DNA of 24,520 nt from Casimicrobiaceae bacterium (lineage in GTDB: Bacteria > Pseudomonadota > Gammaproteobacteria > Burkholderiales > Casimicrobiaceae): assembly GCA_955652025.1 (NCBI GenBank), contig CATPAO010000065.1, positions 1 to 24,520 on the forward strand. Reading direction: 5' to 3'. The position numbers were made by a program, and so were the translations under genes. Of this stretch, positions 16,922 to 20,275 are shown piece after piece (the stretch's first letter is position 1; every line of letters begins with the position of its first letter). Under the pieces are notes generated by a model, which did not search any database, was not told the DNA's origin, and saw nothing but the letters and a program-made list of their open reading frames with translations.

Positions 16922-19900
16922 ATGAACGACTCGACCCGTCCGCCGCTCGTCTACAAGCCGATCCACAAGGTGCGCTTCGTGACGGCGGCGAGCCTGTTCG
17001 ACGGCCACGACGCGGCGATCAACATCATGCGGCGCATCCTGCAGGCGACCGGCTGCGAGGTGGTTCATCTCGGGCACAACCGGTCGGTCGAGGAGATCGT
17101 CACCTGCGCGTTGCAGGAAGACGCGCACGGTATCGCGATCTCGTCGTACCAGGGTGGGCACGTCGAGTTCTTCAAATACATGCTCGACCTCTTGCGGGCG
17201 CGCGGCGCCGGCCACATCAAGGTTTTCGGCGGCGGCGGCGGCGTGATCGTTCCCGCCGAGATCAAGCTATTGCACGACTACGGCGTCGCGCGCATCTTCT
17301 CGCCCGAGGACGGACAGAAGCTCGGGCTACAGGGGATGATCAACGAGATCGTGTCGACGGCGGACGTCGATCTCGCGCATTCGCTGCCCACTTCGCTGTC
17401 GCCGCTCTCCGATCCCGATCGTCATACGCGAGCGCGCGCGTTGGCGCGACTCATTACCGGCCTGGAGAATGGCGTCGTGCCGCCCAAGCTGCGCGACGAA
17501 ATGGTGGCGATCGCGAAGAGGGCCAAGGTTCCTATCCTCGGCATCACCGGCACCGGTGGCGCGGGCAAGAGCTCGCTTACCGACGAGCTGGTGCGCCGGT
17601 TTCGCGTCGACCAGGACGACGCGCTCAAGATCGCGATCATTTCGATCGACCCGTCGCGGCGCAAATCCGGCGGCGCTCTCTTGGGCGACCGCATCCGGAT
17701 GAACGCGATCGAGCATCCCAACATCTACATGCGCTCGCTCGCGACGCGCGACACGGGCACCGAAATCTCCAAGGCGCTGCCCGACGCCATTGCAGCGTGC
17801 AAGGCGGCCGGCTTCGATCTCGTCATCGTCGAGACATCGGGCATCGGGCAGGGTGATGCGGCGATCGTGCCCCATGCCAACCTGTCGCTGTACGTGATGA
17901 CGCCGGAGTTCGGCGCGGCGTCGCAGCTCGAAAAGATCGACATGCTCGATTTCGCCGATTTCGTCGCGATCAACAAGTTCGACCGCAAGGGCGCCGCGGA
18001 CGCGCTCCGCGACGTGCGAAAGCAATATCAGCGCAATCGGGAGCTGTTCCGTGAACCGGCGGACGCGATGCCGGTGTACGGAACGATCGCGTCGCGCTTC
18101 AACGACGACGGCGTCACCGCGCTCTACCAGGCCGTCGCGTCGAAGCTGACCGAGCACGGCCTCAAGCTCAATCCCGGCACGCTGCCGGCGGTGACGATCA
18201 AGCAATCGACGGGGCAAAACGCGATCGTGCCCACGGCCCGATCGCGCTATCTCGCCGACATCGCCGAAGCCGTACGCCGTTATCACCGGCACGCCGACGA
18301 GCAGGCGCGCCTTGCGCGCGAGCGGCAACAGTTGATGGCGACGAAGGCGATGCTCGCTGCGACCCTCACCCCAACCCTCTCCCGCAACGCGGGAGAGGGA
18401 GTCGCCTCCGGCGGCTCCTCGAGGGAATCCCTCTCCCCCGTGGGAGCGAGCGTGGGTGAGGGGATTGCTGCGATCGACACGCTCATCACCGACCGCGACG
18501 CCAAGCTCGATGGCCGCTCGAGGAAACTCGTCGAGATGTGGCCGGGGACGCGTGCCGCCTACGCCGGCGACGAGTACGTCGTGAAGATTCGCGGCAAAGA
18601 GCTCCGCACAACGCTCACGACGACGTCGTTGTCGGGCACGAAGGTGCGCAAGGTCGTGCTGCCGAAATTCGAGGACGACGGCGAGATCCTGCGCTGGCAA
18701 CTCACGGAGAACGTCCCCGGCAGCTTTCCGTTTACCGCGGGCGTGTTCGCGTTCAAGCGCGAGAACGAAGACCCGACGCGGATGTTCGCCGGCGAGGGTG
18801 ACGCGTTTCGCACCAACAAGCGCTTCCATCTGCTGGCCGACGGCATGCCGGCGAAGCGCCTGTCCACGGCGTTCGACTCGGTCACGCTCTACGGCAACGA
18901 GCCCGATCTCCGCCCCGATATCTATGGCAAGGTCGGCAACTCGGGCGTGTCGATCGCGACGCTCGACGACATGAAGGTGCTGTATGCCGGTTTCGACCTC
19001 TGCGCGCCGAACAATTCGGTGTCGATGACGATCAACGGCCCGGCGCCGTCGATCCTCGCGATGTTCATGAACACCGCGATCGACCAGCAGCAGGAGAAAT
19101 TCCGCGCCGACAACGGCCGCGATCCGACGGAGGACGAGGCCGCCAAGATCAAGGCATGGACGCTCGCTACCGTGCGCGGCACCGTCCAGGCCGACATCCT
19201 CAAGGAAGACCAGGGCCAGAACACCTGCATCTTCTCGACGGAGTTCAGTCTCAAGGTGATGGGCGACATCCAGGAATACTTCGTCCATCACGACGTCAAG
19301 AACTTCTACTCGGTATCGATTTCGGGCTACCACATCGCCGAGGCTGGCGCGAACCCGATCTCGCAGCTCGCGTTCACGCTGTCGAACGGCTTCACGTTCG
19401 TCGAAGCCTATCTCGCGCGCGGCATGCATATCGACGATTTCGCGCCGAACCTGTCGTTCTTTTTCAGCTACGGTATGGACCCCGAGTATGCGGTGATCGG
19501 CCGCGTCGCGCGGAGAATATGGGCGGTCGCGATGCGCGAACGCTACGGCGCCAACGAGCGCAGCCAGAAGCTCAAATTTCACTCGCAGACGTCGGGCCGT
19601 TCGCTGCACGCGCAGGAAATCGCATTCAACGACATCCGCACAACGCTGCAGGCGTTGATTTCGACCTACGACAACACCAATTCACTGCACACCAACGCCT
19701 ACGACGAGGCGATCACGACGCCGACCGAAGAAAGCGTCCGCCGCGCGATGGCGATCCAGCTCATCATCAACCGCGAATGGGGACTCGGCAAGAACGAGAA
19801 TCCGAACCAGGGGTCGTTCATTATCGACGAGCTGACCGATCTGGTCGAGGAGGCGGTGCTGAAGGAGTTCGAGGCGATTTCCGAGCGCGGCGGCGTACTG

Positions 19901-20275
19901 GGTGCGATGGAAACTGGCTACCAGCGCGGCAAGATTCAGGAGGAGTCGCTCTATTACGAGCACAAGAAACACGACGGCAGCTATCCGATCGTCGGCGTCA
20001 ACACGTTTCGCGCCGCGCACAGCGATGCGGCGCCGGTGAAGATCGACCTCGCCCGCTCGACCGAGGAAGAGAAGCACTCGCAGCTCTCGCGCCTCGCCGA
20101 CTTCCACGCGCGCCATGCCGACGAAGCGCCCGCGGCGCTCGCGCGGCTGCAACGGGTCGTCATCGAGAACGGCAATGTGTTTGCCGAACTGATGAACTCG
20201 GTGCGCGTGTGCTCGCTCGGTCAGATCACGAACGCACTGTTCGAGGTGGGTGGACAGTATCGCAGAAGCATGTAG
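16922..20275 (+). CDS. icmF: Fused isobutyryl-CoA mutase (B12 / G-protein chaperone / mutase), IcmF
   Basis: 1117 aa; coenzyme-B12-dependent interconversion of isobutyryl-CoA and butyryl-CoA, with its own MeaI-type GTPase. Residues about 15-150 are the B12 domain with base-off DGHDAA and GGGGG. Residues about 190-450 are the GTPase: P-loop [37 protein letters not shown]. About 545-1090 is the mutase barrel. The specificity residues look ICM-like: Phe in TAGVFAFKR (Tyr in methylmalonyl-CoA mutase) and Gln in [10 protein letters not shown] (Arg in that enzyme). Residues 481-517 in the linker after the GTPase are encoded by an inserted palindromic repeat (separate entry), so the protein is 37 residues longer than expected. 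ATG at 16922 is preceded by GGAG. Monocistronic; cytosolic. Confidence 0.95.
18363..18466. mobile_element. 104-bp palindromic REP/MITE-like element inserted in frame within icmF
   Basis: Outer 9-bp inverted repeats are CCCTCACCC (18363-18371) and GGGTGAGGG (18454-18462). Inside, a perfect hairpin has arms CCCTCTCCCGC (18375-18385) and GCGGGAGAGGG (18389-18399), and a second CCCTCTCCC begins at 18429. The 7-bp direct repeat GCTGCGA flanks it at 18356-18362 and 18467-18473, the expected mark of insertion. Element plus duplication is 111 bp, or 37 codons, so the frame is kept. Removing it restores [18 protein letters not shown]. The motif resembles a common dispersed proteobacterial intergenic repeat; it encodes no transposase, so it would need one in trans. 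Confidence 0.85.

Follow-up and report, generated by a model that had tools for sequence, protein, structure and literature searches.

Short palindromic repeats that lie in frame within protein-coding genes have been described in several bacteria. Di Nocera et al. (2013) reported GTAG and CGTC REPs in frame within genes, often as inverted dimers; the accessible portion of that paper (PMC3733652) places REPs in many proteins, proposes flexible linkers or loops as tolerant sites, equates CGTC-1 with dRS3 and reports no dedicated transposase for the CGTC repeats. The same portion describes the recB genes of two Xanthomonas species, which carry different REPs at roughly one site. In Rickettsia, palindromic elements of ∼150 bp are retained as in-frame protein inserts (Ogata et al. 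2000, 2002, as summarized in the available part of a review, PMC10969869). For such in-frame palindromes it has so far been hard to tell whether they have simply survived by chance or genuinely supply new protein sequence. Our search of the literature, which lacked most subscription journals, found no paper on palindromic repeats in Casimicrobiaceae or in isobutyryl-CoA mutase. We describe here a palindromic insert in the icmF gene of a Casimicrobiaceae bacterium, which proved to be one among many such events rather than a lone fresh insertion. We favor, with a probability of roughly 0.77, the reading that old, in-frame REP-like repeats of several unrelated families have been received repeatedly by a tolerant linker loop of IcmF, where they turn over quickly.

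The stretch of DNA that was analyzed (‘the window’; 24,520 nucleotides) lies on contig C65 of a 2.78 Mb genome that is 67% complete in 400 contigs (G000). Its icmF gene (positions 16922–20275, forward strand, as are all features below) encodes a fused isobutyryl-CoA mutase/MeaB-type GTPase of 1117 amino acids, in an open reading frame that continues uninterrupted across the insert. A domain search identified a B12-binding domain (PF02310, residues 18–113; 16973–17260), a MeaB-type GTPase domain (PF03308, residues 174–407; 17441–18142) and a methylmalonyl-CoA-mutase-type catalytic domain (PF01642, residues 593–1110; 18698–20251). The insert, which belongs to a repeat family that we term A, was delimited by its palindromes, its folding and its alignment with relatives whose linker is empty; together with flanking GCTGCGA words it spans 18356–18473 (residues ∼479–518, in the interdomain linker).

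The palindromic element itself occupies 18363–18466, with one GCTGCGA on its left (18356–18362) and one on its right (18467–18473). Its left REP-like unit (CCCTCACCCCAACCCTCTCCCGC..GCGGGAGAGGG; 18363–18399) contains perfect 11-nucleotide arms (18375–18385 and 18389–18399), and its right arm (GGGAGCGAGCGTGGGTGAGGG; 18442–18462) repeats the left end (18363–18383) imperfectly in inverted orientation, the two 21-nucleotide arms being 76% complementary. The region 18346–18483 folds much better than its shuffled counterparts (z = −4.48; 0 of 200 shuffles as good), and the 111 nucleotides from 18356 to 18466 correspond to 37 stop-free codons. A prior interpretation made from the DNA letters (the sequence-only reading) had described this element, its perfect 11-bp hairpin and its GCTGCGA flanks correctly, and the reading frame and domain assignments bear out its placement of 37 in-frame codons in the linker after the GTPase domain. 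The terminal inverted repeats that it also proposed are present, but they are imperfect and unsymmetrical, with an extra GATT that separates the right arm GGGTGAGGG from the GCTGCGA following it.

Conserved domains lie on both sides of the insert, and to judge from the sequence the enzyme presumably still works with the insert in place. The closest structure in the PDB, 4xc6 (IcmF of Cupriavidus), has a short loop at the position of the linker. In an AlphaFold2 model of the window protein (mean pLDDT 71.7, built on a shallow alignment and with further weak stretches), insert residues 484–510 have pLDDT values below 50 and form a loop flanked by helices at residues 443–481 and 511–528; because 253 of the 1117 residues in the model fall below 50, the low value at the insert is a weak sign of disorder.

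The sequence-only reading regarded the insert as the product of a single recent transposition, in which a 104-bp non-autonomous element entered an otherwise intact site and created a 7-bp target duplication. The in-frame fit of 37 codons and the GCTGCGA words on both sides speak for that account. However, the closest proteins among the matches listed (P0002, P0003 and P0004; 93–95% identical) share the insert at other lengths, with linkers of 75, 75 and 73 residues compared to 67 in the query, so that the insert predates these lineages and is old rather than fresh. Close relatives with an empty site do exist, as had been anticipated (P0008, P0012, P0013 and P0017, each with a linker of 35 residues), but the nearest proteins among the matches listed carry the insert. 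Removal of the 37 codons, rather than restoring a typical IcmF, leaves a linker of 30 residues that is 5 short of the empty relatives, which argues against a single clean event. Linkers of 73–75, 67 and 35 residues instead point to an original net gain of ∼40 codons and a later loss of ∼8 in the query, and the agreement between 104 + 7 nucleotides and 37 codons looks coincidental. The insert would then be an old in-frame family A copy, seated in a loop between two helices of the region joining the GTPase and mutase halves of the enzyme; such a loop may tolerate many sorts of open, hydrophilic stretch.

The ends of related elements bear on the proposed duplication. We compared 30 family A elements, drawn from eight genomes, for which both true ends are in hand. 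The window copy stands alone with its direct repeat of 7 bp: flanking direct repeats at the other 29 measure 2–5 bp, and the best repeats at the four other complete G000 copies are 3, 3, 3 and 2 bp. With swapped flanks, repeats of 1–5 bp were obtained in 98% of cases. Two further families, B and C (described below), have flanking direct repeats of at most 4 bp (38 and 7 elements, respectively; the B set was chosen for CGTC ends and contains a few chance pattern matches, at L219). Measured against swapped flanks, a fixed-length target site duplication, the mark of a DDE-transposase MITE, was found in none of the three sets (30 A, 38 B and 7 C elements). We conclude that these elements leave no fixed duplication, contrary to the claim that the element transposes with one of 7 bp. 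This lack fits IS200/IS605-type single-strand transposition, which may be the chemistry by which the elements move.

At the window copy, we take the GCTGCGA pair to be chance or a local event and no trait of the element. Alanine codons abound in the linker, and in the empty relative P0012 the site is already preceded by MLA and followed by AAID (two alanines before ID). Conversely, in P0002 and P0003, too, a pair of alanines stands on either side of the insert, and given that repeats of at least 7 bp occur in only 0.5% of swapped flanks, a real duplication at this single copy retains a small chance. Recent transposition as a whole we consider quite improbable.

The proposal that a dispersed repeat has here been turned into in-frame protein sequence, by comparison, held up well. 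The left 39–46 bp of the window element, with its left REP-like unit, recur at five other places in G000, and more copies are found in the genus. Four of those five share a build of 65–71 bp, comprising CCCTCACCCC, a hairpin, a spacer and a right end of GAGGG; the window copy is longer and its right half is degenerate. The fifth, a half copy, is in frame within metG, where it separates the synthetase domain from the tRNA-binding domain. Matches to family A occur in 33 of 61 genomes searched (own included), with a maximum of 37 in genome G002. Several copies in G002 and G009 consist of two inverted units with a spacer, and inspection by eye of the copies read revealed no GTAG tag next to the stem and no CGTC tag.

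Seven of the 63 family A places read are in-frame cases in MetG, E2, E3, ABC ATPase and HsdR. The family lies between domains in MetG (in frame in the linker of both G000, L003, 1501–1538, and G009, L269), in E2 (G005 and G009), in E3 (G013) and in a two-domain ABC ATPase (G014); in HsdR (L276) it is found inside a domain, not in a linker. The in-frame copies in E2, E3, ABC ATPase and HsdR are located at L270, L277, L258, L291 and L276. For family B, none of 12 frames scanned among 30 places read in G002 lay between two domains. The occurrence of family A between domains of several proteins favors, for this family at any rate, tolerance of linkers rather than a special target.

We compared the same linker in 121 IcmF proteins (the query and the best 120 of 7998 scored). 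It exceeds 45 residues in 75 of them, and 47 of those 75 read as translated palindromes from three unrelated families. By label, the set comprises 17 A, 21 B and 9 C linkers, 28 long linkers with no recognizable palindrome, and 46 that are empty. Most of the 121 are known from protein sequence alone and their labels are accordingly peptide patterns. Outside the linker these patterns matched 9 of 1934 windows, and among shuffled long linkers they matched less than 1%. Family A is of the CCCTCACCCC type, family B is CGTC-tagged and dRS3-like, and family C has GGGTCAGAG inverted repeats; in G002, copies of B inspected by eye display a CGTC end, a stem of 8–9 bp and inverted dimers. A non-palindromic, helix-like linker of exactly 63 residues recurs in P0033, P0083, P0085, P0120, L014 and L022.

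We read both the DNA and the protein of the linker at 30 loci (own included). In all three genomes checked, the insert is that genome's own dispersed repeat: family A in G000; a B element in G002 that recurs near full length in dozens more places; and in G014 a C element, marked by long inverted repeats, that recurs near full length at four other places and in shorter form elsewhere. The icmF linker of G005 contains a family A hairpin in a different reading frame, and that of G017 a decayed family A element. In a set of 80 titled IcmF loci from genome contigs, 77 linkers measure 32–53 residues; in the same set L167, which lies outside the genus on the tree, contains a B element at the DNA level, and long linkers without a clear palindrome were seen at L155 (63 residues) and L170 (75 residues). 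Linker lengths span 28 to 100 residues overall, and exact insertion points vary among species. Across 231 aligned IcmF sequences, internal insertions of at least 8 residues number 116 entries at P0008 residues 475–488 and 5 elsewhere (a count that leaves out the N-terminus and in which one row may count twice). A separate loop, in the GTPase domain, carries an in-frame palindrome that represents a fourth type (CCGTTCGCCCTGAGC...GCTCAGCCCGAACGG, from position 1129) in an Ottowia sp. MAG (L149); in L151, L155 and L172 that loop is occupied by dissimilar inserts.

An artefact of assembly or binning might be suspected from the fragmented and incomplete state of G000 and from the icmF gene of G012, which ends in a confused repeat cluster. 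The insert, however, is present in three other sequence clusters, one of them on a 400-kb contig (P0003), its frame is open throughout, and a B-bearing linker lies on a contig of 564 kb (P0026); we regard an artefact as scarcely credible. The G012 locus itself (L026, at the end of G012:C174) runs from icmF into a GGGGTCAGAG repeat cluster and then into an inverted piece of the linker, an arrangement that is either real or an assembly fold-back.

The three families were then placed on a FastTree phylogeny of 164 rows, from which the linker columns had been removed. The minimum number of label changes is 11 for A, 15 for B and 9 for C, with 10, 13 and 8, respectively, forced by well-supported branches; these counts combine gains with losses, and recombination of linkers would lower them. 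Shuffled labels require more changes on average (19.2, 21.8 and 9.8), and for family C 85 of 500 shuffles were as low as observed. Families A and B are therefore also partly inherited, and C not clearly so. Different families occupy the linkers of P0034/P0110 and of P0053/P0059 despite 97.3–97.5% identity outside the linker, and the sister rows P0005/P0006 (96.7% identical outside the linker) also differ in family. We propose that in a genus near Casimicrobiaceae (Burkholderiales), so placed by the source names of close proteins, the unrelated palindrome families A, B and C arrived independently and repeatedly, and that linker palindromes degenerate and give way to others quickly, in contrast to the conserved remainder of the enzyme.

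The presence of three unrelated families at one spot, with turnover between proteins that are 97% identical elsewhere, could also mean that the linker DNA or its transcript attracts palindrome transposition; the Ottowia element, which is similar but sits at another site of icmF, indicates that insertion into the gene is not confined to a single place. Set against such targeting are the family A copies between domains of MetG, E2, E3 and the ABC ATPase, and the differing icmF insertion points across species. Targeting of this kind appears improbable, and tolerance rather than targeting probably decides the site. Tolerance alone leaves unexplained why three families meet at one linker in one genus, and some preference at the DNA level may contribute.

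Selection on linker length is a further alternative, in which length alters GTPase–mutase coupling or GTP-driven oligomerization and palindromes serve as raw material. IcmF is described as oligomerizing through its G domains (in the accessible part of PMC10481361), and non-palindromic linkers of 62–65 residues recur in the group, close in length to many linkers that carry B. Adaptive tuning is nevertheless rather unlikely, since lengths range so widely, close relatives are empty, and no peptide was seen in common among the families.

Genes for PF01797 transposases are present in 10 of 22 genomes of the genus. The matching transposase expected by the sequence-only reading did not emerge for family A: PF01797 was not found in G000 at its 67% completeness, and family A copy number displays no association with PF01797 presence in the genus (p = 0.82). 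Four of eight PF01797 loci read (L097, L098, L100 and L101) are flanked by inverted GGGTCAGA-type repeats, which match the core of family C, and these genes are candidate movers of that family.

Repeated reception of REP-like repeats by a tolerant loop, the reading we prefer, would make this linker a useful case. Different elements have entered a single site many times over, close relatives with an empty site provide controls, and the structure of a relative has been solved (4xc6), so that the origin of linkers, tolerance versus targeting, and the effect of length on GTPase–mutase coupling become directly testable. A bolder version, which we offer tentatively, is that the IcmF linker is a shared landing pad, with unrelated palindromes swapped in and out within species-level time, and that the linkers of other multidomain enzymes (MetG, E2, E3 and the ABC ATPase) are supplied in the same way. 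If so, the lineage would obtain ever new linkers, and throughout these bacteria REP-like elements would generally provide the stretches that join domains.

REPINs, reportedly described by Bertels and Rainey together with RAYT transposases, are said to be dispersed, non-autonomous pairs of inverted REP-like units with a spacer. Family A resembles them in its two inverted units, spacer and dispersal, but differs in the missing PF01797 match in G000 and in the lack of a copy-number association. The PF01797 genes between inverted GGGTCAGA-type repeats recall the TIR-flanked tyrosine transposases (TIRYTs) described in the accessible portion of PMC3733652, although the repeats match family C in their core rather than over their full length, and the resemblance is known here at the level of sequence. 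The Rickettsia elements, as the available part of PMC10969869 presents them, hit many unrelated genes, whereas here several families hit one gene, and the host and sequences are different. The intragenic REPs of PMC3733652, so far as its accessible portion describes them, are likewise in-frame short palindromes, and family B resembles dRS3; in-frame palindromes in genes were known already from that work. The difference lies in three families at one linker of one metabolic enzyme, in many proteins and with rapid replacement, and it is this multi-family turnover at a single linker that is new.
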